A stretch of DNA of 64,000 nt from NCBI GenBank assembly GCA_029964075.1, contig CM057144.1, positions 2,069,281-2,133,280 of the forward strand, given 5' to 3'. The notes below the pieces were generated by a model. It ran no database searches. It saw only the letters and a list, made by a program, of their open reading frames with translations, and was not told the DNA's origin. The position numbers and the translations under genes were made by a program. Shown piece by piece: positions 5,097 to 62,240 of the stretch (position 1 is its first letter; the number at the start of each line of letters is the position of its first letter). Source of the stretch: Patiria pectinifera. Its lineage: Eukaryota > Echinodermata > Asteroidea > Valvatida > Asterinidae.

Positions 5097-5246
5097 AACC
5101 AATGGGTGCAAACCTATGTTCCCCAATACCTATGTTCGGGCCCAATACCTTATGTTCCCTAATCTTACCCTAACCCTAAACCTAAACCTAACCCTAAGGA
5201 TTTTGGGGAACATAGGTATTGGGGAACATAGGTACTGGGGAACTTC
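5097..5246. repeat. Foldback repeat with an interstitial telomere-like core
   Basis: Bases 5166-5198 hold about five head-to-tail units of CCCTAA or ACCTAA. They are flanked by inverted arms: the left has repeated TGTTCCCCAATACCTA-type words, the right has repeated GGGGAACATAGGTATT words. The whole can fold with the telomere-like tract in the loop. It could be a captured telomere repeat, or a MITE whose loop resembles one by chance. Confidence 0.7.
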
Positions 5247-10015: not shown

Positions 10016-10087
10016 GGCTGGATGGCCGAGTTGGTAAAGCACGGAAACGGCTTTCCGGACTCGCGGGTTCGAACCCCGCTCCAGTCA
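10016..10087 (+). repeat. tRNA-like sequence (tRNA pseudogene or SINE head)
   Basis: The 7-bp acceptor stem GGCTGGA/TCCAGTC pairs fully with one G-U. The T arm is intact (GCGGG, loop TTCGAAC, CCCGC), and the A-box-like GGCCGAGTTGG is present. The D stem has a mismatch, and the anticodon arm forms five pairs only around a 6-base loop. It is therefore unlikely to be a working tRNA. Inverted copies of AAACAAAACAATTGAC-like sequence lie just outside it. Confidence 0.6.
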
Positions 10088-33027: not shown

Positions 33028-36000
33028 ATGGACGGACCGAGGAACAAGATCCGCATCTCCAATCTCTCTGCCGCTGCAAGCCACTCCAAGGTCTCTCACA
33101 TTTTTAAGAAATTTGGCCAGATTACAAAAGGTACAGTGGTTAAGTCAGTGCCGATCATGTCTCTGTATTTTACATTAGTCATTAGAAAGTCCAGACTAAA
33201 TCGTCGCCGTTTTCACAAACCGACACGCACACGCTGTGTGGTGTCAGTTCGTGAAAACTGCGTAATCAATCTTTTCGGATTCACGAACTGACACGCCGGT
33301 GTGTGCGCGCACTTTGCACACTGACGCGTACAATTTGTGTAATAGAATAATTTTCGTTTTCACAAACTGACACGCAAGCATGTGGCGGAAATACGTTTCG
33401 GAGAAAAAAAAGCTTTGGAAGGTTTGACACGAATTTACTCCATCCGTATACATTGTACTTGTGGGCTTACACAAGATTTATTTAAAAACCGTATTACTGG
33501 TGAAATGTTAGTGTGTGCATGTTAGCACCGGGTGTCAGTTCATGAAAACAAAATAATACGGTTTTCTAAAGTGCGCGCATGTGCCAGGCACTCGCGTGCA
33601 ACTGAGTGTCTCAATTTGTGGCGTCGGTGACGAAATGAACACACAAAATGTTGTAAAAAGTTGATTAATGTCAAATGTTCAAACATAATTTCACCCTCTG
33701 GAGTACATGGGCTCCTTGCGCAAACAAGGGAGGGCGCTTTTCAACCACTTTCAAGAGCAGTGCGTTCGCATACGGCCTGGTGTGCGTAAAGTGCAAAGTA
33801 CAGTGAAATCTCGATAAGTCAAACCTTGGGGGAATCGGCTCAAATTATGAGTTGAGCAGAGTTTTGAGTTATCCAATGGATATTCTATTCAACAACAATT
33901 GACGGGAATAGGTTTTTACTTTGAGTTCGAAGGGTTTTTGAGTTAACAGGTTTTGGCTTATCGATATTTCACACTTTCTTATTCCGAATGTGGACAAAGC
34001 CATAACGTCTTCGTATCGATGTCAGGCATCATCAAAAATGTGTTCAAATGTCTCTCCCAGTCTCCCCCAACTCTCCCTTTCTTGCCGTTGAAGGGGGTAC
34101 TCGTGCACAGAGCCGACAGTGTTTTATTGTTGACAAATTAAGGGCTACAGTGCCCAGCCTCTCTCGTTTAATTGACATCAGGTTGAGTATTTTTACCTTG
34201 TTGTTCCTCCAGTTTACATCCAGCGTCAGGGTGCGACATGGAACTGTGGCGGCCTGGCCTACGTTGCCTACACGGACGCCGAAAGCGCTGCCAAGGCAGT
34301 GGACGAGATGAACGGAGAGGTATTATTTACAATGTTTTGTATTTCTTAATCTTTCGTTTGTTGGATTTTTTAAAGCAAATTCCAAAAGAAAAGTTAAGTA
34401 ACATTTGAAAGTATTCACGAGATGGAATTTGCGTCAGGGTGATGTAAATTTTATTAGGTTTTGCCCTTCACCGACGTGTAAACACTGTATACTCAGTGTG
34501 TTACCACCGAGTGTAAGTTAGAAAAAAATCACTCAGGTGGGACTCGAACCCACCAACCCAGCCAACCGACTTTTCTTTCGGCAAGCTTGGTGGTCGAATG
34601 GTAAGACGTCTTCACTAGAATGCAGGAGGTCGCGGGTTCGAGTCCCATCTCAGTAATTTTTTTTTCTAACTTTTACTCCGGAGGTAACACACTGAGTGTA
34701 CAGTGTTTATACGTCGGTGAAGGGCAAAACCTAATATTAAACATTTGAAAACCCACCTAGAAGTTTTTTTTGCAGGACTGCGAAAGGCAGAGCCTCACCG
34801 TTATTACTGAAGATGGGGCTTAGTACATTTTTGTGTGTGAGATTCTTGAAAGTTCCTTGACCCTAACCCTGCCAGACTCAACACAGTGCATCAGGTGTCA
34901 AAAGTCTGTGGGACCTTGCTGCATTGAGCCATCAACACCAGTGCATAAACGACCAATTCTGAAACAACGAGAGCTAGTCCCATTGAACAATGCTACAGCT
35001 GTATCCAGCTGCATTTGGTGACCACGGACTCTGAGGCAGTTTGGCCTTGAGATTTGTGACCTGATGGATCTTGCTACACTGGGCAGGCTTGTCATTTTGA
35101 CAGGTGTTGCATGTTGCTGCATTTGGCAGGGTTCTAGCCAAAATACCCTGAGTTAGGGTTATTTAAATGTGCAAAAGGAGTTGCGGTTTATTAAAGAAAT
35201 TGCAGTGAATTTCTTTCTGTGCTCTTTCAGATGTTTGATGAGACCATCATGTCTGTGGAGCTTGTCTCAGACCATGAGTTTCTTCACCACGTGAAGACGA
35301 TGCCTGCCTCATCCATGGTTGATGGTGCGTCTAAACCATCGAGAAAACAAAAGTAAGACGTCTAATCCCCACAATAGAGACCAAATACTTAGGAGCCATA
35401 TCGTTAATTATTATTAATATCAGGCTTCCAGTGTTAAAAATACATTAGCGTGTCATATGCTTTTGTAAAAAATACCCGGAAGACTGCAGTACTATGTCAG
35501 TAAAAGTACCCGGATGAGGACAGTATTATTTTTGATATTGTCTTTCTCTGTGTGTTTTTTCTTCAAATTTCACTGGTTCCCACAATATCAAGAGCATAGA
35601 AGCTCACAGTTGTAAACCAATCAAAAGAGTGTAGTGCTCGGTTCCGTCACACACGATTTATTTCTTTTATTTATTTTCCTAAATTTGAAATAGTTTTGTG
35701 CTGTATTTCAGGAAAGCACCAGCGCCGACCAAACTGACGGCCAAAGACATAGCACTGGCACCAAACTCGGAATGGGAGCCCTACATCCCTCCATCTCAGT
35801 ACGGGCCCGTCGAGTACCCAGCAGTAAAGAAGGAGGCCCCCTCTGACAGCCCTCAACCTCCCCCGCCTGGGACAACCCCAAAAAACAATTCTTTTACCAA
35901 AAAAAATTACTCGAGACACGAGGAACCGCAGAATAGGAAAACACAGGCAGCCTCTTTAGTCGGTGACGCTCGTCAAGAATCGAAATACAATCCGGAAGAT

Positions 36001-39000
36001 CGTGGTGGCAGACCGTCACTCAGGGGTACTTACAAAAGTGCCCCAAAACACCCTGTCCCCAACATTTCCCATAAAGGGGACCATTATGATCCACCCTCCA
36101 CCCGCGGCGACCCCCCACGCAAGACGGCTGCCAATGACTCACTGACCCAGAATACACTCAGAGGTGACCGGCGGTCATTTGGAGATGACCCTTACAGGGA
36201 CCCAGTTTACCAAGACCCTCCACGCAAGATGGCTACCAGTGACCCGCTGACCCAAAGGTCACTCAGAGGTGACCGGCGGTCACTCGGAGATGACCCTCAC
36301 TGGGACCCAGTCTACCAAGACCTACCGAGGTCATCCAGGGCTGACCATCACACTGACCATTCCAGAAACCACAGAAGCCACCCCCGCAGTGACCCAGAAC
36401 CTCCACTTCGTTCTCTACTACCAAGACGAGATTATGAAGGTACATGTAGGCTTGAACAAGTCCGCTTCGGAATCGATTCCAAAGTCGAGATCCAAAATGT
36501 GTAAACTTTTCTTACAAGAAAAGCCTCCATGCAGAAAAATTCGCCATTTTTCTGATTTTTCTGAACAATGTTCGGTCGTTTCTCGTACATGTGACGGTTC
36601 AAATTGATTGCACTTTGTCCTTTTTTTATCAGAGCATTTCTTGCACCTCATTTTGCCATCCTTTGTTGGATGTTGTCCATAATTTTTACCAAGACGCTTT
36701 CTTTGTCTCAAAGATGACCCTCACCTGGAGAGCGACCGAAGGCGACATGACCGGTATGACGCTCCGAGGAGCAGAGATTACGAGTATGAAAGGTTTCCGG
36801 CAACCAGCCACAGAGGTAATTTTTTGGTTGACGTTTGACATTTGTAACCTTTTACGCAGATAAAGGTGCATCATAATTAATACCCCTGAACAATACGGTA
36901 GGCCAATGAGAATACCCCTATCTCAGGCAATCTCAGCTTCCTAGGGAGCATACAGCTCGAAGCTGCCATGTAATGTTAACCAGCTAAATCCAACACAACC
37001 ATCTCTGGCCTCGCAGGTACCCATTTACTTCTGAGGGGATAAGCAATGTGTGAAAAGTGCCTTGCCCATGGACACACCCATCACAAACCCAGGCAGGCCT
37101 CGAACCCACAACCTGCAAATTTCCCACATTATCTTGAGTCCAGTGCACCAGACCATGCACGAGGCCGCTGGGCAACTGGTGATCGGTTCCCCTCAAGTGA
37201 ATGGTTTTCTGTTTGGTTTTAGAGCGTTCACCGTCGAGACATCACTGGGACCTGGACCCCGTACCGAGCACCTCCAAGCGCCGCGTCTACCCTGACGACT
37301 ACATTGAAGGTAATTTCGCTGTTTTCTCAAGAAGCATTTCTAAAAAATGGCATCTCTTATTAATCTCCTAGCGTATCACTTAATCGTGAAACGCTCCCAT
37401 GGACCTGTACTGCGCTCGGCTCCGAGAGATTTAAGTCAAATTAATCACAAGTCAAACTAGAAAGCACTCCGAGAGCGCAAACCTCTGCCAAAGCTTAACA
37501 ATTCCCCGCCATATTGTCCTGTTCACAGACAAACCAACCAACCATCTGACCAACAAACAAACCAACGCCGATTTAAACATAACCTCCTTGGCGGAGGTAA
37601 TTAACTGTCCATCACATAACAAGTCACAAGTTAAATCTGACCGTTTGGTTCACAGGTTAAAGGATGACGAACGAAAGAAATGCGTTTGTCACACTACATG
37701 AGTGATTTGAATAATTCTTGTACTAAAAAAAAACCTGGACCACAGCGTGTAGAACGCCGTGGTCCAGTGGTTACGGTGTTTGACTCATGTACGAAGGTGC
37801 GTGGGTTCGAACTCTGCCAGGAACATGGTGTTTGTGCCCTTGAGCAAGACACTCAACTTCAATTGCCTCTCTCCACCCAGGAGTATAAATGGGTACCTGT
37901 GAGGGTCGAAGACCGATTGAACGCTGATATCGGCTGCCGCGTGGTCCCGTGGCCTGATGAACGGGTTAATCATTGTAAAGCGCTTTGAGATCATTGATAC
38001 GATGGAAAGCGCTATAAAAGCACAATTATTATTAATATTATTACATTAAACCCTTAAGTCGCTGTGGTGTCCAAAATATGCCTTGCTTATTACTCATGTT
38101 AGCATTTGAAACCACCAAGCACACTACAGGGTGAGTAAAAAAAACCGAAACCAAAATGTCCGAACCATTGTTTTAGTGAAGTTCTGCATGTAGCACTTTC
38201 AAAATCTAGGATATGAAAGCGCAATTCATAGGCTTTTTTTAGTACAAGAATTATTCAAATCACTCATGTACTTTTCAACTTTCAAGTTTCAACTTTTAAA
38301 CACAACCACCGTTTGTAGGTTCTGTCCACGGATCACAAAACCATTCAGTGTTCTTTCGGCGAAACAAAAACAAATCACATAAGGATGTGTTTGAATTGTT
38401 TCGTTTTGCTAAAAAACACGCAACTTTTTTGTGATCCCTGCACAGAACTTTGAAACAGTGGTTGTGTTTAAAACTCTTTAACTTGAAAAGTACATGAGTG
38501 ATTTGAATGATTCTTATACTGAAATAAAGCTTATGAATTGGGCTTTCATATCCGAGATTTTGAAAGTGCTACATGCAGAACTTCCCTAAAACAATGGTCC
38601 CAACATTTTTTTTTTCTCACCCTGTATGGTTTTATTGATTCATTAGTGAATAAACACAATGTAATACAGTGCAGTACAGGGGCCAAAGGTTTGAATAGTT
38701 TTCATCTTTACTTGAAATTGAAGAACTTGTGATACACTTATGCTTGACCTTTAAAGATTTGTGATGACTTCAAGTGTGAGAGTTACAAAGTAGTTTGTCC
38801 TACTCTTATTTCCATGAAACCCTGAAGTCCCACGTGCCCGTCTGTACGACGACGACCCCCTGCGACGAGATCCCTACCCTAGGGATCCCTACCCCCGTGA
38901 CGACAGGAGGGACCTAGACCCAAGGGAGGAGAGACTCTACCGGGAACCGGTCAGGGATGGGTACCGAGAACCGGACAGGGTAGACGATAGGTATTCACTT

Positions 39001-47400: not shown

Positions 47401-48400
47401 AAGCTCTAGCAGGAGCTTCTATGTCACTTGGTGGTCGGTCGCTCGGTCGGTCTGTCTGTCTGTCCCCGAAAATCGACCAAAAATATGGTGTTCCATATGT
47501 GCCATCGGCGTCGCATTTTTCGGCGTCGCGTTTTTTAAGCTCTGGCAGGGATCGTTTTGATAGCTTTCACATTTAGCCCTGGCGGGGTTCATTTCGATCG
47601 ATTTTCATGCAGTACTTCCATGCAAGACTTCTTGAAACACGGCCAGAGCTTATTGTGCACTCGCACTGGCGCTGTACGACACCATCCTCAAACAAGGTGG
47701 ACGCCATTTTGTCTAGTTGTTGGACGATATCCAGAAGGAGGAAATGTCCCCGAAATTGACCAGACGCATGGTGTCCCTCATGTGCCATAGGCATCGTATT
47801 TTCACCAGAGCATATTCTGCACTCGCACTTGTTTAGTATGAGGAGGAATTGTCATCATTTCCTCACGATGGCTACGGGGCCAAGCCCATCGTGCTTCCAA
47901 CGAAAACAAAACTGTGCGTCGACAAAAATAATTTTCACAGCTTTCTCAAAAAGAATGTCTACTGAGCTGAGTCAGCTGACCTTTCGACAGGTTAATTTTT
48001 GATAACCTGTTTCGAATTTATTGCATTGTTGTTTCCTGAAATAGAAAAGAGCAGTTTTCTTTTGCAGTGATGTTCACTCATAGGTAAAGTTGCTTAGGAC
48101 AATTTTTTTTTTTTTTTAAATATTCGATTATTTCAATTCTGCCATAAAGGATACATAATCGTAATCAAATTCACAATACATGTACATAGATATATTTACA
48201 ATAATAGTGAACATTAACTAAATGGTAGCATCTAGGTCCGGGGTGAAGCATAAGCTTTTGTTCCCCAGCCTATGGACAGACAGACAAGTGACAGACAAAC
48301 GTGAACAGACAGAGCAAAGACACCGGTGTAAGACAGTAATCAAGGCCGTTACTACCCCTATTACATTGCTTTAGAGTGCAATGAAAATAGAGTTTGTTGG
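47400..48400. repeat. Unclassified repeat with internal duplications
   Basis: A GGTC/TGTC short tandem repeat (47,430-47,465) is followed by two diverged copies of a block (47463-47520 and 47746-47801, both containing ATGGTGT and ATGTGCCAT then CATCG or CATCGGCG). A T-rich run at 48,104-48,118 and a GACAGAC-rich stretch at 48,270-48,310 follow. No coding domain. Confidence 0.4.
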
Positions 48401-48767
48401 TTTTCTAGATGCTGAGGAGCGCACTCAATAGGCCTATGGAATTATCCATGATCGTTCATGTTCGAACCCTATTTCCCTCAAAAATTCAAGCACCTACGTC
48501 AGCGTTATCATCGATCAGATGACACTATTTCTGTATCGAGAAACATTTCAGTTTCAATTCTTCCTTGTCTCTGGTTGCAGTGATAACCGCAGTACGAGGA
48601 AATCTGAAAAGAATGTTTGTTCGAGGAGATATTTTGTTTGGTTGAGAAATTGTACTGAATCATTTTCGGTTGCGTTACCATCATTTACAAATGTTATTTT
48701 CTTCTTTCCAATTCTTTCTTCAAAACTTTGGGTATTCCAGAATTGATTGGAGCACCTCTTGCCTGCG

Positions 48768-51700
48768 GACAAATTTGACTAAAAATGTAAGGCTAACCCC
48801 TTGTATTTTTTTCAATTTTGGCCAAACAATGAAATTGCTTGAAAGTTGCTGGAAAGCTGCCTGAAGGGCCCTAGAACACATTCCAAATCGTTTTCTGGAC
48901 AGATGAGCTATAACAAGGGAAATTTCGTCAAAAATTTAAGGTAAAATCACTCAAAATTGTTCATTTTTTTCTTCAAAAATGGATGATTTTTGCCCAAATC
49001 TTCACAATTATGCGTGTTAGAGTATTGATTGATGTTCCTCTTGCATCCAGATGAATTTCTGCCTTGTTTTGAGAAAAATCATTTTTTGGCCAAATTTGAC
49101 TAAAAATGTAAGGCTAACCCCTTGTATTTTTTCAATTTTGGCCAAAAAATGAAATTGCTTGAAAGTTGCTGGAAAGCTGCCTAAAGGGCCCTAGCACACA
49201 TTCCAAATCGTCTTCTGGACAGATGAGCTATAACAAGGGAAATTTCGTCGAAAATTTAAGGTAAAATCACTCAAAATTGTTCATTTTTTCTTTAAAAATG
49301 GATGATTTTTGCCCAAATCTTCACAATTATGCGTGTTAGAGTATTGATTGATGTTCCTCTTGCATCCAGATGAATTTCTGCCTTGTTTTGAGAAAAATCA
49401 TTTTTTGGCCAAATTTGACTAAAAATGTAAGGCTAACCCCTTGTATTTTTTTCAATTTTGGCCAAAAAATGAAATTGCTTGAAAGTTGCCGGAAAGCTGC
49501 CTAAAGGGCCCTAGAACACATTCCAAATCGTTTTCTGGACAGATGAGCTATAACAAGGGAAATTTCGTCAAAAATTTAAGGTAAAATCACTCAAAATTGT
49601 TCATTTTTCTCTTCAAAAATGGATGATTTTTGCCCAAATCTTCACAATTATGCGTGTTAGAGTATTGATTGATGTTTCTCTTGCATCCAGATGAATTTCT
49701 GCCTTGTTTTGAGAAAAATCATTTTTTATCCAAATTTGACTAAAAATGTAAGGCTAACCCCTTGTATTTTTTTCAATTTTGGCCAAAAAATGAAATTGCT
49801 TGAAAGTTGCTGGAAAGCTGCCTAAAGGGCCCTAGCACACATTCCAAATCGTCTTCTGGACAGATGAGCTATAACAAGGGAAATTGCGTCGAAAATTTAA
49901 GGTAAAATCACTCAAAATTGTTCATTTTTTCTTTAAAAATGGATGATTTTTGCCCAAATCTTCACAATTATGCGTGTTAGAGTATTGATTGATGTTCCTC
50001 TTGCATCCAGATGAATTTCTGCCTTGTTTTGAGAAAAATCATTTTTTGGCCAAATTTGACTAAAAATGTAAGGCTTACCTTTTACATTTTTTTTCCATTT
50101 TGGCCAAAAAATGAAATTGCTTGAAAGTTGCTGGAAAGCTGCCTAAAGGGCCCTAGAACACATTCCAAATCGTTTTCTGGACAGATGAGCTATAACAAGG
50201 GAAATTTCGTCAAAAATTTAAGGTAAAATCACTCAAAATTGTTCATTTTTTCCTTCAAAAATGAATGATTTTTGCCCAAATCTTCACAATTGTGCTTGTT
50301 ATAGTATTGATTGATGTTCCTCTTGCATCCAGATGAATTTCTGCCTTGTTTTGAGAAAAATCATTTTTTGGCCAATTTTGACTAAAAATGTAAGGCTAAC
50401 CCCTTGTATTTTTTTCAATTTTGGCCAAAAAATGAAATTGCTTGAAAGTTGCTGGAAAGCTGCCTAAAGGGCCCTAGAACACATTCCCAATCGTTTTCTG
50501 GACAGATGAGCTATAACAAGGGAAATTTCGTCGAAAATTTAAGGTAAAATCACTCAAAATTGTTCATTTCTTTCTTCAAAAATGGATGATTTCTGCCCAA
50601 ATCTTCACAATTGTGCGTGTTAGAGTATTGATTGATGTTCCTCTTGCATCCAGATGAATTTCTGCCTTGTTTTGAGAAAAATCATTTTTTGGCCAAATTT
50701 GACTAAAAATGTAAGGCTAACCCCTTGTATTTTTTTCAATTTTGGCCAAAAAATGAAATTGCTTGAAAGTTGCTGGAAAGCTGCCTAAAAGGCCCTAGAA
50801 CACATTCCAAATCGTTTTCTGGACAGATGAGCTATAACAAGGGACATTTCGTCAAAAATTTAAGGTAAAATCACTCAAAATTGTTCATTTTTTTCTTCAA
50901 AAATGGATGATTTTGCCCAAATCTTCACAATTATGCGTGTTAGAGTATTGATTGATGTTCCTCTTGCATCCAGATGAATTTCTGCCTTGTTTTGAGAAAA
51001 ATCATTTTTTGGCCAAATTTGACTAAAAATGTAAGGCTAACCCTTTGTATTTTTTTCAATTTTGGCCAAAAAATGAAATTGCTTGAAAGTTGCTGGAAAG
51101 CTGCCTAAAGGGCCCTAGCACACATTCCAAATCGTCTTCTGGACAGATGAGCTATAACAAGGGAAATTTCGTCGAAAATTTAAGGTAAAATCACTCAAAA
51201 TTGTTCATTTTTTATTTAAAAATGGATGATTTTTGCCCAAATCTTCACAATTATGCGTGTTAGAGTATTGATTGATGTTCCTCTTGCATCCAGATGAATT
51301 TCTGCCTTGTTTTGAGAAAAATCATTTTTTGGCCAAATTTGACTAAAAATGTAAGGCTAACCCCTTGTATTTTTTCAATTTTGGCCAAAAAATGAAATTG
51401 CTTGAAAGTTGCTGGAAAGCTGCCTAAAGGGCCCTAGCACACATTCCAAATCGTCTTCTGGACAGATGAGCTATAACAAGGGAAATTTCGTCGAAAATTT
51501 AAGGTAAAATCACTCAAAATTGTTCATTTTTTCTTTAAAAATGGATGATTTTTGCCCAAATCTTCACAATTATGCGTGTTAGAGTATTGATTGATGTTCC
51601 TCTTGCATCCAGATGAATTTCTGCCTTGTTTTGAGAAAAATCATTTTTTGGCCAAATTTGACTAAAAATGTAAGGCTAACCCCTTGTATTTTTTTCAATT

Positions 51701-54700
51701 TTGGCCAAAAAATGAAATTGCTTGAAAGTTGCCGGAAAGCTGCCTAAAGGGCCCTAGAACACATTCCAAATCGTTTTCTGGACAGATGAGCTATAACAAG
51801 GGAAATTTCGTCAAAAATTTAAGGTAAAATCACTCAAAATTGTTCATTTTTCTCTTCAAAAATGGATGATTTTTGCCCAAATCTTCACAATTATGCGTGT
51901 TAGAGTATTGATTGATGTTTCTCTTGCATCCAGATGAATTTCTGCCTTGTTTTGAGAAAAATCATTTTTTATCCAAATTTGACTAAAAATGTAAGGCTAA
52001 CCCCTTGTATTTTTTTCAATTTTGGCCAAAAAATGAAATTGCTTGAAAGTTGCTGGAAAGCTGCCTAAAGGGCCCTAGCACACATTCCAAATCGTCTTCT
52101 GGACAGATGAGCTATAACAAGGGAAATTGCGTCGAAAATTTAAGGTAAAATCACTCAAAATTGTTCATTTTTTCTTTAAAAATGGATGATTTTTGCCCAA
52201 ATCTTCACAATTATGCGTGTTAGAGTATTGATTGATGTTCCTCTTGCATCCAGATGAATTTCTGCCTTGTTTTGAGAAAAATCATTTTTTGGCCAAATTT
52301 GACTAAAAATGTAAGGCTAACCCCTTGTATTTTTTTCAATTTTGGCCAAAAAATGAAATTGCTTGAAAGTTGCTGGAAAGCTGCCTAAAGGGCCCTAGAA
52401 CACATTCCAAATCGTTTTCTGGACAGATGAGCTATAACAAGGGAAATTTCGTCAAAAATTTAAGGTAAAATCACTCAAAATTGTTCATTTTTTCCTTCAA
52501 AAATGAATGATTTTTGCCCAAATCTTCACAATTGTGCTTGTTATAGTATTGATTGATGTTCCTCTTGCATCCAGATGAATTTCTGCCTTGTTTTGAGAAA
52601 AATCATTTTTTGGCCAATTTTGACTAAAAATGTAAGGCTAACCCCTTGTATTTTTTTCAATTTTGGCCAAAAAATGAAATTGCTTGAAAGTTGCTGGAAA
52701 GCTGCCTAAAGGGCCCTAGAACACATTCCCAATCGTTTTCTGGACAGATGAGCTATAACAAGGGAAATTTCGTCGAAAATTTAAGGTAAAATCACTCAAA
52801 ATTGTTCATTTCTTTCTTCAAAAATGGATGATTTCTGCCCAAATCTTCACAATTGTGCGTGTTAGAGTATTGATTGATGTTCCTCTTGCATCCAGATGAA
52901 TTTCTGCCTTGTTTTGAGAAAAATCATTTTTTGGCCAAATTTGACTAAAAATGTAAGGCTAACCCCTTGTATTTTTTTCAATTTTGGCCAAAAAATGAAA
53001 TTGCTTGAAAGTTGCTGGAAAGCTGCCTAAAAGGCCCTAGAACACATTCCAAATCGTTTTCTGGACAGATGAGCTATAACAAGGGACATTTCGTCAAAAA
53101 TTTAAGGTAAAATCACTCAAAATTGTTCATTTTTTTCTTCAAAAATGGATGATTTTTGCCCAAATCTTCACAATTATGCGTGTTAGAGTATTGATTGATG
53201 TTCCTCTTGCATCCAGATGAATTTCTGCCTTGTTTTGAGAAAAATCATTTTTTGGCCAAATTTGACTAAAAATGTAAGGCTAACCCTTTGTATTTTTTTC
53301 AATTTTGGCCAAAAAATGAAATTGCTTGAAAGTTGCTGGAAAGCTGCCTAAAGGGCCCTAGCACACATTCCAAATCGTCTTCTGGACAGATGAGCTATAA
53401 CAAGGGAAATTTCGTCGAAAATTTAAGGTAAAATCACTCAAAATTGTTCATTTTTTCTTTAAAAATGGATGATTTTTGCCCAAATCTTCACAATTATGCG
53501 TGTTAGAGTATTGATTGATGTTCCTCTTGCATCCAGATGAATTTCTGCCTTGTTTTGAGAAAAATCATTTTTTGGCCAAATTTGACTAAAAATGTAAGGC
53601 TAACCCCTTGTATTTTTTTCAATTTTGGCCAAAAAATGAAATTGCTTGAAAGTTGCTGGAAAGCTGCCTAAAGGGCCCTAGCACACATTCCAAATCGTCT
53701 TCTGGACAGATGAGCTATAACAAGGGAAATTTCGTCGAAAATTTAAGGTAAAATCACTCAAAATTGTTCAATTTTTCTTTAAAAATTGATGATTTTTGCC
53801 CAAATCTTCACAATTATGCGTGTTAGAGTATTGATTGATGTTCCTCTTGCATCCAGATGAATTTCTGCCTTGTTTTGAGAAAAATCATTTTTTGGCCAAA
53901 TTTGACTAAAAATGTAAGGCTAACCCCTTGTATTTTTTTCAATTTTGGCCAAAAAATGAAATTGCTTGAAAGTTGCTGGAAAGCTGCCTAAAGGGCCCTA
54001 GAACACATTCCCAATCGATTTCTGGACAGATGAGCTATAACAAGGGAAATTTCGTCAAAAATTTAAGGTAATATCAGTCAAAATTGTTCATTTTTTTCTT
54101 CAAAAATGGATGATTTCTGCCCAAATCTTCACAATTATGCGTGTTAGAGTATTGATTGATGTTCCTCTTGCATCCAGATGAATTTCTGCCTTGTTTTGAG
54201 AAAAATCATTTTTTGGCCAAATTTGACTAAAAATGTAAGGCTAACCCCTTGTATTTTTTTCAATTTTGGCCAAAAAATGAAATTGCTTGAAAGTTGCTGG
54301 AAAGCTGCCTAAAGGGCCCTAGAACACATTCCCAATCGATTTCTGGACAGATGAGCTATAACAAGTGAAATTTCGTCCAAAATTTAAGGTAAAATCAGTC
54401 AAAATTGCTCATTTTTTCCTTCAAAAATGGATGATTTCTGCCCAAATCTTCACAATTATGCGTGTTAGAGTATTGATTGATGTTCCTCTTGCATCCAGAT
54501 GAATTTCTGCCTTGTTTTGAGAAAAATCATTTTTTGGCCAAATTTGACTAAAAATGTAAGGCTAACCCCTTGTATTTTTTTCAATTTTGGCCAAAAAATG
54601 AAATTGCTGGAAAGTTGCTGGAAAGCTGCCTAAAGGGCCCTAGCACACATTCCAAATCGTCTTCTGGACAGATGAGCTATAACAAGGGAAATTTCGTCCA

Positions 54701-57700
54701 AAATTTAAGGTAAAATCAGTCAAAATTTTTCATTTTTTTCTTCAAAAATGGATGATTTCTGCCCAAATCTTCACAATTATGCGTGTTAGAGTATTGATTG
54801 ATGTTCCTCTTGCATCCAGATGAATTTCTGCCTTGTTTTGAGAAAAATCATTTTTTGGCCAAATTTGACTAAAAATGTAAGGCTAACCCCTTGTATTTTT
54901 TTCAATTTTGGCCAAAAAATGAAATTGCTTGAAAGTTGCTGGAAAGCTGCCTAAAGGGCCCTAGAACACATTCCCAATCGATTTCTGGACAGATGAGCTA
55001 TAACAAGGGAAATTTCGTCCAAAATTTAAGGTAAAATCAGTCAAAATTGTTCATTTTTTTCTTCAAAAATGGATGATTTCTGCCCAAATCTTCACAATTA
55101 TGCGTGTTAGAGTATTGATTGATGTTCCTCTTGCATCCAGATGAATTTCTGCCTTGTTTTGAGAAAAATCATTTTTTGGCCAAATTTGACTAAAAATGTA
55201 AGGCTAACCCCTTGTATTTTTTTCAATTTTGGCCAAAAAATGAAATTGCTTGAAAGTTGCTGGAAAGCTGCCTAAAGGGCCCTAGAACACATTCCAAATC
55301 GTTTTCTGGACAGATGAGCTATAACAAGGGACATTTCGTCAAAAATTTAAGGTAAAATCACTCAAAATTTTTCATTTTTTTCTTCAAAAATGGATGATTT
55401 TTGCCCAAATCTTCACAATTGTGCTTGTTATAGTATTGATTGATGTTCCTCTTGCATCCAGATGAATTTCTGCCTTGTTTTGAGAAAAATCATTTTTTGG
55501 CCAAATTTGACTAAAAATGTAAGGCTAACCCCTTGTATTTTTTTCAATTTTGGCCAAAAAATGAAATTGCTTGAAAGTTGCTGGAAAGCTGCCTAAAGGG
55601 CCCTAGAACACATTCCAAATCGTCTTCTGGACAGATGAGCTATAACAAGGGACATTTCGTCAAAAATTTAAGGTAAAATCACTCAAAATTGTTCATTTTT
55701 TTCTTCAAAAATGGATGATTTTTCCCCAAATCTTCACAATTATGCGTGTTAGAGTATTGATTGATGTTCCTCTTGCATCCAGATGAATTTCTGCCTTGTT
55801 TTGAGAAAAATCATTTTTTGGCCAAATTTGACTAAAAATGTAAGGCTAACCCCTTGTATTTTTTTCAATTTTGGCCAAAAAATGAAATTGCTTGAAAGTT
55901 GCTGGAAAGCTGCCTAAAGGGCCCTAGCACACATTCCAAATCGTCTTCTGGACAGATGAGCTATAACAAGGGAAATTTCGTCGAAAATTTAAGGTAAAAT
56001 CACTCAAAATTGTTCAATTTTTCTTTAAAAATGGATGATTTTTGCCCAAATCTTCACAATTATGCGTGTTAGAGTATTGATTGATGTTCCTCTTGCATCC
56101 AGATGAATTTCTGCCTTGTTTTGAGAAAAATCATTTTTTGGCCAAATTTGACTAAAAATGTAAGGCTAACCCCTTGTATTTTTTTCAATTTTGGCCAAAA
56201 AATGAAATTGCTTGAAAGTTGCTGGAAAGCTGCCTAAAGGGCCCTAGAACACATTCCAAATCGTTTTCTGGACAGATGAGCTATAACAAGGGAAATTTCG
56301 TCAAAAATTTAAGGCAAAATTACTCAAAATTTTTCATTTTTTTCTTCAAAAATGGATGATTTTTGCCCAAATCTTCACAATTGTGCTTGTTATAGAATGG
56401 ATTGATGTTCCTCTTGCATCCAGATGAATTTCTGCCTTGTTTTGAGAAAAATCATTTTTTGGCCAAATTTGACTAAAAATGTAAGGCTAACCCCTTGTAT
56501 TTTTTTCAATTTTGGCCAAAAAATGAAATTGCTTGAAAGTTGCTGGAAAGCTGCCTAAAGGGCCCTAGAACACATTCCCAATCGATTTATGGACAGATGA
56601 GCTACAACAAATGAAATTTCGTCCAAAATTTAAGGTCAAATCAGTCAAAATTGCTCATTTTTTCCTTCAAAAATGGATGATTTCTGCCCAAATCTTCACA
56701 ATTATGCGTGTTAGAGTATTGATTGATGTTCCTCTTGCATCCAGATGAATTTCTGCCTTGTTTTGAGAAAAATCATTTTTTGGCCAAATTTGACTAAAAA
56801 TGTAAGGCTAACCCCTTGTATTTTTTTTCAATTTTGGCAAAAAAATGAAATTGCTGGAAAGTTGCTGGAAAGCTGCCTAAAGGGCCCTAGAACACATTCC
56901 AAATCGATTTCTGGACAGATGATCTATAACAAGGGAAATTTCGTCGAAAATTTAAGGTAAAATCACTCAAAATTGTTCACTTTTGCTTTCAAAATGGATG
57001 ATTTTTGCCCAAATCTTCACAATTATGCGTGTTAGAGTATTGATTGATGTTCCTCTTGCATCCAGATGAATTTCTGCCTTGTTTTGAGAAAAATCATTTT
57101 TTGGCCAAATTTGACTAAAAATGTAAGGCTAACCCCTTGTATTTTTTTCAATTTTGGCCAAAAAATGAAATTGCTTGAAAGTTGCTGGAAAGCTGCCTAA
57201 AGGGCCCTAGAACACATTCCCAATCGATTTATAGACAGATGAGCTATAACAAGGGAAATTTCGTCCAAAATTTAAGGTCAAATCAGTCAAAATTGTTCAT
57301 TTTTTTCTTCAAAAATGGATGATTTCTGCCCAAATCTTCACAATAATGCGTGTTAGAGTATTGATTGATGTTCCTCTTGCATCCAGATGAATTTCTGCCT
57401 TGTTTTGAGAAAAATCATTTTTTGGCCAAATTTGACTAAAAATGTAAGGCTAACCCCTTGTATTTTTTTCAATTTTGGCCAAAAAATGAAATTGCTTGAA
57501 AGTTGCCGGAAAGCTGCCTAATTGGCCCTAGAACACATTCCCAATCGATTTCTGGACAGATGAGCTATAACAAGGGAAATTTCGTCCAAAATTTAAGGTA
57601 AAATCAGTCAAAATTGCTCTTTTTCCTTCAAAAATTGATGATTTCTGCCCAAATCTTCACAATTATGCGTGTTAGAGTATTGATTGATGTTCCTCTTGCA

Positions 57701-59240
57701 TCCAGATGAATTTCTGCCTTGTTTTGAGAAAAATCATTTTTTGGCCAAATTTGACTTAAAAATGCAAGGCTAACCCCTTGTATTTTTTTCAATTTTGGCC
57801 AAAAAATGAAATTGCTTGAAAGTTGCCGGAAAGCTGCCTAAAGGGCCCTAGAACACATTCCCAATCGATTTCTGGACAGATGAGCTATAACAAGTGAAAT
57901 TTCGTCCAAAATTTAAGGTAAAATCAGTCAAAATTGTTCATTTTTTTCTTCAAAAATGGATGATTTCTGCCCAAATCTTCAAAATTATGCGTGTTAGAGT
58001 ATTGATTGATGTTCCTCTTGCATCCAGATGAATTTCTGCCTTGTTTTGAGAAAAATCATTTTTTGGCCAAATTTGACTAAAAATGTAAGGCTAACCCCTT
58101 GTATTTTTTTCAATTTTGGCCAAAAAATGAAATTGCTTGAAAGTTGCCGGAAAGCTGCCTAAAGGGCCCTAGAACACATTCCAAATCGATTTCTGGACAG
58201 ATGAGCAAGAACAAGGGAAATTTCGTCGAAAATTTAAGGTAAAATCAGTCAAAATTGTTCATTTTTTCCTTCAAAAATGGATGATTTCTGCCCAAATCTT
58301 CACAATTATGCGTGTTAGAGTATTGATTGATGTTCCTCTTGCATCCAGATGAATTTCTGCCTTGTTTTGAGAAAAATCATTTTTTGGCCAAATTTGACTA
58401 AAAATGTAAGGCTAAACCCTTGTATTTTTTTCAATTTTGGCCAAAAAATGAAATTGCTTGAAAGTTGCTGGAAAGCTGCCTAAAGGGCCCTAGAACACAT
58501 TCCAAATCGATTTCTGGACAGATGATCTATAACAAGGGAAATTTCGTCGAAAATTTAAGGTAAAATCACTCAAAATTGCTCAATTTTTTTCTTCAAAAAT
58601 GGATGATTTTTGTCCAAATCTTCACAATTATGCGTGTTAGAGTATTGATTGATGTTCCTCTTGCATCCAGATGAATTTCTGCCTTGTTTTGAGAAAAATC
58701 ATTTTTTGGCCAAATTTGACTAAAAATGTAAGGCTAAACCCTTGTATTTTTTTCAATTTTGGCCAAAAAATGAAATTGCTTGAAAGTTGCTGGAAAGCTG
58801 CCTAAAGGGCCCTAAAACACATTCCCAATCGATTTCTGGACAGATGAGCTATGACAAGGGAAATTTCGTCGAAAATGTAAGGTAATATTACTCAAAATTG
58901 CTCATTTTTTTCCTTCAAAAATGGATGATTTTTGTCCAAATCTTCACAATTATGCGTGTTAGAGTATTGATTGATGTTCCTCTTGCATCCAGATAAATTT
59001 CTGCCTTGTTTTGAGAAAAATCTTTTTTTTGGCCAAATTTGACTAAAAATGTAAGGCTAAACCCTTGTATTTTTTTCAATTTTGGCCAAAAAATGAAATT
59101 GCTTGAAAGTTGCTGGAAAGCTGCCTAAAGGGCCCTAAAACACATTCCCAATCGATTTCTGGACAGATGAGCTATGACAAGGGAAATTTCGTCCAAAATT
59201 TAAGGTAAAATCACTCAAAATTGCTCATTTTTTTCTTCAT
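48768..59240. repeat. Satellite array, about 33 monomers of about 320.5 bp
   Basis: The landmark TAAGGCTAA or a close variant recurs at 48788, 49109, 49428, 49749, 50069, 50391 and onward to 59052, with spacings of 319-322. Every monomer carries ATGAATTTCTGCCTTGTTTT, TTTTTGGCCAAATTTGAC, GGAAAGCTGCCTAAAGGGCC and CTTCACAATTATGCGTG or close variants. The left edge begins abruptly at ACAAATTTGAC; a degenerate half-unit precedes it (48,690-48,767) and another follows it (59,241-59,370). It is AT-rich with no credible ORF. No autonomous element is visible in it. Confidence 0.97.
49109..53594. repeat. Two tandem copies of a 7-monomer higher-order unit (about 2,243 bp)
   Basis: Variants marking single monomers recur 2,243 bases later in the same order: the 6-T GTATTTTTTCAATT at 49,130, GTTGCCGG with TTTTTTATCC (49,490-49,733; 51,730-51,973), GTGCTTGTTATAG (50,295; 52,536), TTCATTTCTTTC (50,565; 52,806), CTAAAAGGCC with GGGACATTTCG (50,785; 53,027). 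Landmarks at 49428, 49749 and 50069 map exactly to 51671, 51992 and 52312. Confidence 0.9.
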
Positions 59241-59370
59241 TTTTTTCCTTTTAATTTGCGCTGAACAATGCAATTGCTTGACACTTTCAGGGAAGATTTG
59301 CGGAGGGCCAGAGAACACATTTCAATTTGACTTCTGGACCGATGTGCTATCTTGGGCAAAATCAGTCAAA

Positions 59371-60430
59371 ATAAGAATTTAATTAACATTTTTTAGAACG
59401 ACAGTTCAGCTTAAAAGTTAAAAATTCAAGTTAAAATGTCACATTCTCGTCCTGGCAATATGCAGTATCACATTTCATATCAATACGAGCAAATTGGAAA
59501 GGAAATGAGTATTGTTTGAGAAAGCGTGGCCGTTATTTTATTACAATGATCATGAAAACATGTACTGTACGTTGGAAATAACACCAGATATACACGATAT
59601 AAATCCATTACTTTTGGTGGATTCTGGGGGACTTGGTCCAGTAGGCCTGGTGTGAATATATAATGATGGAGTATGATGGACTTGAAACAGCAAAAAAGTT
59701 TCCTATCCAGTGCTTACTATTGGAATCGACGTAGGAAATAAAGTATAAGCACTGGGGACAACGTCGGACAATGCTCAGTTTGAGGGTTTTCTGTTCAAAT
59801 TGTGAACCCAAAATGTGCTCATTGAAACCGTTTTGTGAGAAAACTTTGCTCATTGACCCACTTGTCATGTATTGAAACAACGAGTCACCAAATATAAGAC
59901 AATTTACGACCGTACAGCACAATATCCAAAATTCTGGCCAATTTTTTTTGTGCTGAAATAGCTGTTACATTGAGTGTTCTGCCTGAAATGACGTCACACT
60001 GTTGCTCATGAATATGCAAAGTTTAATTAGCATAAAAATAGATTACACGATCCCTAAAGGCGCAGAAAAAAGATGGCGGTTAATACCGGCCAAGTTATAA
60101 CTATAACTTACAACATTTATAATGCAAAAAGTTACAAAAGTTTCTTCGGTATTACCAGTTTGTCTTTTTACATTTCTGTTTTTTTGTTTTTTTACAATAA
60201 ACGCGTATCAATACCTTTTTGTGTCATACTTAGTAGCATTGAACTAAAAACCGAACAGAACAAAATACGTCAAAAGTGTATTTAATGCATGATGCCATGC
60301 TGATGTATGCTTTCTTACACGTCAGTCTGTGTTCTATTATTGAAAGTGTCCAAATAATTATTACCATTTTAAAATCTGTGGTCTTCTTTTGTTAACTTGT
60401 ATATTGCAATTTCTAAATACTTAATACATT
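59371..60430. other. Intergenic DNA between satellite and membrane-protein gene
   Basis: No supported exon. A 104-codon minus-strand ORF (59922-59608) has no domain. A compact motif cluster occurs at 59,989-60,030. Confidence 0.35.
59989..60030. promoter_or_regulatory. Motif cluster: CRE, POU octamer-like and homeodomain sites
   Basis: TGACGTCA at 59989-59996, ATGCAAA at 60014-60020 and TAATTAG at 60024-60030 fall within 42 bases. This density is enhancer-like. It lies downstream of the minus-strand membrane-protein gene. Function is inferred only. Confidence 0.3.
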
Positions 60431-60742: not shown

Positions 60743-61588
60743 TCATTTTGTAAACAGCTGGAAGGTCCCGGCAATTTTGGCGTACAGGGTCGGTTCTTGT
60801 GTCGAGATAACCCCCTCGTTCACTTGGACAGTTGGGCCGACTTCAACTTCAGCGTAGGCGAGCCCGCGGTTGTGTCTTGACCGTTTGAGAGAGTCCTTCT
60901 TACGTTGCGACTTCTTGGGCGGCGGCATCGGGCGGGGCCCGAACTTGGGCGTGTTCCACTTGGACTTGGCCCTGGAAGAGTAGACGAACTCCTCCCCTCC
61001 TTGGTTGAGCTTCATCGACACTCCCTTGTCCTCACAGGTGTCCGGAGTCGACTTGGCTGGCGGCGCTGCCCCTGATGGCACGGCTGGCAACGGCTTAGGA
61101 TGATTGGCCGGCTTAAACGTTTTTGATTCAACCACGGGAGAGTCTGGCAGGCGATCGTCTTCCGTCCGCTCTCCTTGTGCTGTTGTCTCGATGTTCTCGG
61201 CAATCTGATCGCCATCGTCGTCATCATCGACCGTGGAAGAGAGGAAGATCCCCGGCGGGGCTCCTGCGAAGCTCCCCGGTTGGGTGACAGCGTGCCGCTT
61301 CCGCCGGGATCTCCGCCGTCGAACGCAGCATACTGCGGTCAAAAGAACCACCAGGACCAGCAAGGCCAGCGTTAGTCCACCCACCACGGGAATCCGCCAG
61401 GTCTCCTCTTTCAGCCAGTCCAGCCAGACGTCAAGAAAGAAGGGAGCAGTGGTCGACTGGGAGGTAGATGTAGCCGCTTCATTGGTAGTTGCGATCTCAT
61501 GAACCGTTGTGAACTCCGAGGCGTCAACGGTAGACATACTACTATTATTCATTGCGCTCTCCGTAGCAGACGCCACTGATTGTTGCAC
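60743..61588 (-). CDS. Single-pass membrane protein with ITIM- and ITSM-like tail, 3' coding exon
   Basis: 281 codons when read from a GTG at 61588; the first ATG is at 61552 (codon 13). The frame stays open upstream without ATG, and TTTTCCTTCAG, a good splice acceptor, ends at 61640. The true exon probably begins at 61639, with earlier exons elsewhere. Residues 1-60 are Ser/Thr-rich with NSS, no signal peptide. Residues 66-89 are a membrane helix (VVGGLTLALLVLVVLLTAVC) followed by RRRRSRRKR, giving an outside-N topology. The tail has an Asp run, Pro-rich KPLPAVP and RPMPPPKK (SH3-type), and two tyrosine motifs: LAYAEV (243-248) and TLYAKI (267-272). These fit the ITIM and ITSM consensus, known to recruit SH2 phosphatases or adaptors. 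Family not recognised; an immune or adhesion receptor tail is an inference. Confidence 0.75.
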   Translation of the reverse strand: MQQSVASATESAMNNSSMSTVDASEFTTVHEIATTNEAATSTSQSTTAPFFLDVWLDWLKEETWRIPVVGGLTLALLVLVVLLTAVCCVRRRRSRRKRHAVTQPGSFAGAPPGIFLSSTVDDDDDGDQIAENIETTAQGERTEDDRLPDSPVVESKTFKPANHPKPLPAVPSGAAPPAKSTPDTCEDKGVSMKLNQGGEEFVYSSRAKSKWNTPKFGPRPMPPPKKSQRKKDSLKRSRHNRGLAYAEVEVGPTVQVNEGVISTQEPTLYAKIAGTFQLFTK

Positions 61589-61639
61589 AAGCTGATGATG
61601 CGAGTGTGGAGCGAATAGCGCAACAGTTTGAGCTGACTT

Positions 61640-62240
61640 CTGAAGGAAAATGCCTACTCTGTTTCTCTATGTGAATGATTTTGAGCTATGCACTCAACTG
61701 CATTCACCCGGCGTGCCACCCATCAAATTCAGCGTTCATATAGCCGACCATTCTTAGTTAGACAGCTTAGTTTAGTACAGCTGATAACAGCTGAAATCGA
61801 TTCCGAGTGAGCCTTCCAAGTTGTCTTGAACGAAACGCTTGACCAAACAGCAGCATGAATCGCATTCTAAAGTATCCGTCAGTCCAAACGGATTCTGTTC
61901 GCTGTTTGTTTCAACAACCTTGCCTTATTCAAGTGAGACTTCAAGCTCTCTGCATTGGACTTTATAAATCACTGCATGTGAGATTTTTCTCCTTCCTTGT
62001 CACAAAGGTTCTACTGTCACTTTCGAAGCGGTTTGTAAACATATTGGCGTTTAGAAACCACGCAGTAACTGTCGGATGGGAGCCCTATTTCAACAACTCC
62101 GCTTCTGATGTGATGCTTTTCCTCGTCGAAAAAAAAATAACAGCGCCCTCTGTCAAGTTTCTATAGTCTAGTTCCGAGACTGAAACATTCTGACTATTCT
62201 GAAATTAAAGTATTAAGTCAGGCAACCGTCATATTCAAAA
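61640..62240. other. Upstream flank or intron of the membrane-protein gene
   Basis: No preceding exon could be recognised on the minus strand. A 103-codon plus-strand ORF (61855-62166) has no domain. Confidence 0.3.

Follow-up and report, generated by a model that had tools for sequence, protein, structure and literature searches.

The window analyzed here is a stretch of 64,000 nucleotides from Patiria pectinifera (positions 2069281–2133280 of contig C16, itself 17.66 Mb long, in an assembly of 613.5 Mb in 1020 contigs). The genome has a single Pfam match to Bindin (PF02084, E 1e-33, above the cut-off), on C11, in agreement with an echinoderm host, as bindin is known from echinoderms; COX1 had no match in the assembly. 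At 48770–59239 of this window, on the forward strand, lies a small array whose repeats belong to a 321-bp satellite family of this echinoderm. Tandem Repeats Finder reports a single array at these positions with a period of 321, 32.6 copies and 96% matches. Cutting at a conserved 50-bp box (for example at 49350–49399, forward strand, in monomer m02) has divided the array into 33 monomers, arranged head to tail and about 321 bp long, of which 31 are full (319–322 bp). The box occurs 32 times in the array, 29 times exactly and three times with one mismatch. Decayed monomer pieces are present on the same strand at both edges, at 48717–48776 on the left (72% over 60 bp) and at 59240–59371 on the right (69% over 134 columns), as is expected where homogenization fades. 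The G+C content per 2-kb step is 34–35% across the array vs about 37–48% before it. No open reading frame runs through the tripled monomer consensus and no match in the array was obtained with Rfam at gathering thresholds, which rules out an array of coding or RNA genes. An inverted organization was also ruled out, as 47500–60000 contains no inverted repeat of at least 40 bp (20-base seed). Head-to-tail non-coding arrays of one family, found at several loci and evolving in concert, identify the family as satellite DNA.

Seven consecutive monomers of the array are present twice in tandem. The first copy, m02–m08, occupies 49081–51323 and the second, m09–m15, 51324–53566, both on the forward strand and both 2243 bp in length. 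Global alignment of the two blocks showed 9 differences in 2244 columns, or 99.6% identity (99.9% without a cluster in m05), vs about 96.8% identity between neighboring monomers. When m02–m08 were compared pair by pair with m09–m15, the numbers of differences were 0, 0, 0, 7, 0, 1, and 1. The seven clustered differences are at 50076, 50080, 50081, 50084, 50085, 50087, and 50096, the one at 50087 being an extra T; of the two scattered ones, the first is an indel of T at 50911/53153 and the second an A/C difference at 51214/53457. When no register is fixed, near-identity at the block offset spans 48975/51218 to 51369/53612 and is bounded by differences at 48974/51217 on the left and at 51370/53613 on the right. 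A preliminary description of this DNA had placed a seven-monomer duplication at 49109–53594, with variants recurring in order at an offset of 2,243 while neighbors differ, only a few bases between the blocks, and identity expected to exceed 98% at offset 2243 and to be lower at 320. Pairwise comparison of the monomers has borne these points out, and the extent is correct within the ambiguity of the breakpoints. Equal identity at all offsets, named there as the contrary outcome, was not observed: monomers differed at a mean of 7.7 places for offset 7, compared with 10.3 for offset 1 and at least 10.0 for each remaining offset through 31 (the only pair at offset 32 has 9 differences).

The excess of likeness at offset 7 (z −6.1) was reached by none of 1000 shuffles of the monomer order, familywise too. 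After removal of m02–m08 the best offset was still 7, but with a z of −2.2 and a familywise p of 0.34. Because offset 7 is not significant once the first block is removed, there has been one duplication with two copies only. Of the two marks of a higher-order repeat (HOR), the array therefore shows a multi-monomer unit in tandem whose copies are more alike than neighboring monomers, but not a homogenized array of many unit copies. The blocks m02–m08 and m09–m15 are a single in-register tandem duplication and not a long higher-order array. Such a doubling works like the first step of an HOR, yet the array has not been classed as an HOR array. The higher-order structure proposed in the preliminary description thus holds as a recent in-register duplication of seven monomers and fails as an HOR array.

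The cluster in m05 is found in no other of the 31 full monomers of the window, and to this extent it is private to the first block, as had been proposed for about 50,075–50,095. In the genome it is not private. A 34-bp string covering the cluster was used in a pattern search allowing 3 mismatches, with the reversed pattern, which gave no match, as the control. Among the 95 matches listed, the string was exact once in the window and in 12 monomers of C234, a 58.8-kb unplaced contig filled with satellite, which also carried one single-mismatch copy. The remaining matches listed had 2–3 mismatches and were on C19, C209, C234, C16 (762926), and C124, with no exact string outside the window and C234. 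In 18.8 kb of C234 the 34-mer was found 9 times. A 64-mer of m05 (50055–50118, forward strand) was matched exactly by 5 monomers in this sampled part. Both strings were absent from the 7 other arrays sampled at that time, the window's own copy aside. The monomers of C234 differ from those of the window by 15.6% on average. With 6 or more edits separating it from everything in the array of m05 itself, the 64-bp match is the strongest case among 331 monomers of 13 arrays.

By block alignment, the seven differences between m05 and its sister copy m12 define the smallest transferred tract, 50076–50096 on the forward strand. The diagnostic positions of m05 on either side (alignment columns 14 and 79) are native, which confines the tract to between 21 and about 63 bp. 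The signs by which inter-array gene conversion is recognized, namely linked foreign variants within a short tract of an otherwise native monomer, are all present in m05. On the sequence comparison, a tract of 21–63 bp was probably copied between arrays into this monomer.

Arrays of the family have been found on at least 11 large contigs (C1, C3, C5, C6, C7, C8, C11, C13, C15, C16, and C19) and, among the matches listed, also on C124, C209, C234, and C840. All genome-wide counts are lower bounds, with at least 1216 matches to the box. The matches listed for the box include none free of mismatches, although the window has 29 exact copies, and another listing omits the array of the window itself. 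Comparisons were made for 8 arrays (209 monomers; 221 after recutting) and then for 13 arrays with 331 monomers. In the 13 arrays, divergence was 2.6–8.4% within arrays (12.2% in C6) and 4.3–22.3% between arrays. C234 and C19 form one subfamily, with 4.4% divergence between them and 4.3 and 4.1% within them, and the window array diverges from this pair by 15.1–15.6%. C11/C16a, like C19/C234, are arrays on different contigs that are nearly as alike as monomers of one array. Multi-monomer periodicity at a familywise p < 0.05, uncorrected across arrays, was observed in 6 of the 13, at offset 7 in the window and C11, 15 in C234 and C6, and 2 in C8 and C15a. C16b was significant at offset 1 only, reflecting likeness of neighbors, and no offset periodicity was significant in C1 (p 0.06), C13, C19, C16a, C5, and C15c. 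Seven as a special unit length was rejected, the significant periods of the other arrays being 7, 15, 15, 2, and 2. On all six large contigs with at least two arrays found (C5, C6, C8, C15, C16, and C19) the arrays are regionally grouped, with spans of 0.3–6.0 Mb (6 Mb on C19; Fisher p 1.8e-7 vs uniform placement, from a non-random sample biased to similar arrays, with positions entered by hand and close neighbors merged). The grouping is consistent with a pericentromeric location, which is offered as a hypothesis only because the listings are biased and local duplication also groups arrays. It lends some indirect support to the likeness to centromeric arrays that the preliminary description had drawn. 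The array at 48770–59239 is probably a peripheral member of the family with no specific function of its own.

Other forms of the family have also been noted. At C5:9298900–9301949 and C5:9334331–9336275, decayed relatives of the monomer recur at about 1.5-kb spacing within a longer unit, which occurs twice, about 34.4 kb apart, and may represent an older stage of the family. The non-monomer part of the unit at C5:9.30 Mb, a locus with a single box, was matched at length only within C5:9.30–9.36 Mb, its remaining matches being scattered pieces of about 31–41 bp; no dispersed carrier element was found, and an origin from a transposon was rejected. At C6:11927185–11934403 and C19:17155726–17161604, several copies have matches that are interrupted near base 199 or 158 of the query, as if truncated and full monomers alternated in another composite unit. 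At C19:15704606–15708611, minus-strand matches are followed by plus-strand matches around 15706366, an inversion point within an array.

In the register used here, each monomer begins with an imperfect hairpin-forming dyad (49081–49150, forward strand, in m02, with a counterpart in the other monomers). The inverted repeat, which is imperfect, covers columns 1–70 of the monomer and has its center at column 35; the cluster of m05 spans its loop and a portion of its 3′ arm. Folded as DNA and compared with 200 shuffles, this piece gave −20.4 kcal/mol in m02 (z −6.1) and −20.5 kcal/mol in m05 (z −5.6), and three other pieces of the monomer gave z values of 0.5, −2.2, and −1.1. Self-complementarity of the consensus with arms of 30 and 40 was above that of all 200 shuffles. 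In all 13 array consensuses the dyad region folds, with energies of −15.4 to −22.9 kcal/mol (−17.4 in C234) vs −4.5 to −6.1 for the median window along the same consensuses. Standard pairs fill 361 of the 387 dyad pair cells across the 13 consensuses. No two-sided pair change was found among them, so that conservation of the structure is indistinguishable from conservation of the sequence. Between subfamilies, columns 0–80 and 240–320 are the better conserved and the middle of the monomer is the least conserved.

Foreign tracts were scanned for as exact foreign matches of 30 bp or longer, separated by 2 or more edits from every sequence of the subfamily to which the monomer belongs. The scan detected 7 tracts in 8 arrays (221 monomers), all 7 within columns 0–79. 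In 13 arrays, 20 tracts were detected in 18 of 331 monomers, with 11 tracts (10 monomers) within columns 0–85. The strongest were in m05 (6 edits), C15c_08 (4 edits, 125 bp), and C234_26 (4 edits); that of C15c_08 is at columns 54–179, mostly outside the dyad. Cases with 2 edits are weak because single variants are often common to several arrays. Implanted tracts were recovered in 1387 of 1600 trials, more poorly at columns 0–80 and 240–280 than between them; the rates were 0.80 and 0.68 in the region of the first 85 columns vs 0.96–1.0 in mid-monomer. Against a share of about 12% expected from a rough hand calculation on these trials, the enrichment in the dyad has a p of 3e-6 for 11 of 20 tracts; among tracts with 3 edits or more (3 of 5) the p is 0.013. 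It is conceivable, if rather doubtful, that the dyad is a hot spot for very short exchanges (tens of bp) between arrays on different chromosomes, through local template switching. If true, such a hot spot would keep a shared structure-forming segment in a family with array-specific bodies. The enrichment shrank as arrays were added (from 7/7 to 11/20), and the same picture would result from exchange confined to segments that match well, or from repeated change in the run of T in that region.

The history that we consider quite likely is a recent duplication of seven monomers followed by the arrival in m05 of a 21–63 bp tract from a monomer of the C19/C234 type, all within ordinary satellite turnover. 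Monomers 2–8 would have been doubled when sister chromatids or homologues exchanged DNA out of register, or by a break repair or replication slip of the same effect. The duplication would be recent, because only two scattered differences are found outside the cluster. Short-tract ectopic gene conversion or template switching would then have brought the foreign tract into m05. As m05 equals m12 otherwise, either m05 gained the tract after the duplication, or the transfer came before it and m12 lost the tract through reconversion by a neighbor; a transfer between arrays would be needed in both orders. Several points weigh against this history. The direction of the transfer is one that we infer, and a donor on another chromosome is suggested by the likeness of the unplaced C234 to C19. 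In our judgement 21–63 bp is short for classical gene conversion, which leaves room for template switching. As many as 19 of the 66 minor variants of the window array exceed 20% in another array; since the sharing of variants between arrays is common, some matching tracts will reflect old variants common to several arrays, or repeated change in runs of T. Finally, the analysis draws on assembled sequence, in which collapse, expansion, or mis-polishing may have occurred.

An artefact of assembly or polishing, in which the assembler doubled the block or the m05 cluster was polished in from more abundant reads of the C234 type, is considered unlikely. Satellites are error-prone in assembly, the donor type is borne by a 58.8-kb unplaced contig full of satellite, a kind of sequence whose reads could be misplaced, and the cluster is in one of the better conserved parts of the monomer, where mis-mapping is easiest. 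However, the two scattered differences mean that neither block is a pure copy of the other, multi-monomer periodicity is seen in 6 of 13 arrays, and a cluster carried by m05 only among 31 full monomers also speaks against an artefact. That the cluster arose within the monomer by hairpin-templated mutation, one arm of the dyad being copied onto the other, is barely credible, although all seven changes fall in the loop and 3′ arm and those at 50084 and 50085 improve, by eye, the complementarity of the 3′ arm to the 5′ arm. Templating explains only these two of the seven changes, the others do not follow the other arm, and monomers of C234 match all seven inside the 64-bp exact match. The core of the CENP-B box is NTTCGNNNNANNCGGGN. 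This motif had no match on either strand of the window array, and its best placement in the array consensus missed 3 of the 9 fixed letters; a CENP-B-box satellite was rejected accordingly. It is very improbable that the window holds a true HOR array under selection for a centromere function, in which the block of seven monomers would be the functional unit. In favor of such a role are the grouping of arrays on six large contigs (Fisher p 1.8e-7 vs uniform placement) and the dyad kept in 13 of 13 folded consensuses, dyads having been reported at the centromeres of several species in the available part of PMC9070824. Against it, the block has two copies only, the significant period varies among arrays (7, 7, 15, 15, 2, 2), the array is only 10.5 kb and lacks the CENP-B core, and the grouping, from a non-random sample, is equally explained by local duplication of arrays.

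The position between genes given in the preliminary description was not borne out by a Pfam scan of ten open frames, which gave no match for nine of them and only one below the cut-off for the tenth. This frame, of 307 codons on the minus strand at 60746–61666, matches the membrane segment TM_ErbB1 and is the closest candidate for a gene to the right of the array. Two 105-bp copies (86% matches) at 36109–36322, within a 271-codon open frame (35689–36504) that matches no Pfam family, are possibly a coding tandem duplication. A tRNA gene was identified by Rfam at 10016–10087 (41.7 bits). Short tandem arrays of 16-bp units at 5112–5163 and 5203–5243 are near reverse complements of each other and are possibly the ends of a small element.

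The order of events can be read in one array: seven monomers were duplicated, after which another subfamily most likely contributed a few tens of bases. The recipient, the unconverted sister copy, and the donor are all visible, which is useful for studying the size and location of exchange tracts in satellites. Partial title listings from echinoderm-directed literature searches contained no study of this satellite, nor any satellite study of the lineage. The monomer, dyad, subfamilies, and map positions given here provide a starting description of an echinoderm satellite.

Higher-order arrays of alpha satellite contain many copies of their unit. The HORs of primate alpha satellite likewise have a multi-monomer unit whose copies are far more alike than neighboring monomers, and unequal exchange of multi-monomer units is described as the standard model of HOR origin, along with conversion in centromeric satellites, in the part available of PMC2834710. 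Unlike these, the window array has two copies, spans 10.5 kb, has neighbors about 97% alike, and lacks the CENP-B core. Models of satellite turnover have been treated in PMC8122249, as far as its accessible text goes. In excerpts of PMC9070824, dyad symmetry is associated with some centromeres, whereas dyad-free ones such as the human carry CENP-B sites. The mixed simple and higher-order arrays of Meloidogyne are likewise an invertebrate satellite with conserved boxes, and the sections available of PMC3694981 report shuffling between array types, with boxes of T, A, and C tracts near the exchange points. The Meloidogyne units consist of quite different monomers (32–86% identity; PMC3694981, in part), whereas the window monomers all belong to one 321-bp family. 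The macro-dyad satellites of Tribolium madens likewise have hairpin potential and are found in putative pericentromeric regions, but according to the available portion of PMC13081366 they form inverted arrays over tens of kb, unlike the 70–80 bp dyad per monomer and the lack of inverted arrays here. Short euchromatic or dispersed arrays of Tribolium castaneum likewise are found in assembled chromosome sequence outside large blocks (extracts of PMC5844308 and PMC3411249). Overall, the array is a well-resolved example of familiar repeat turnover and shows no departure from known satellite biology.

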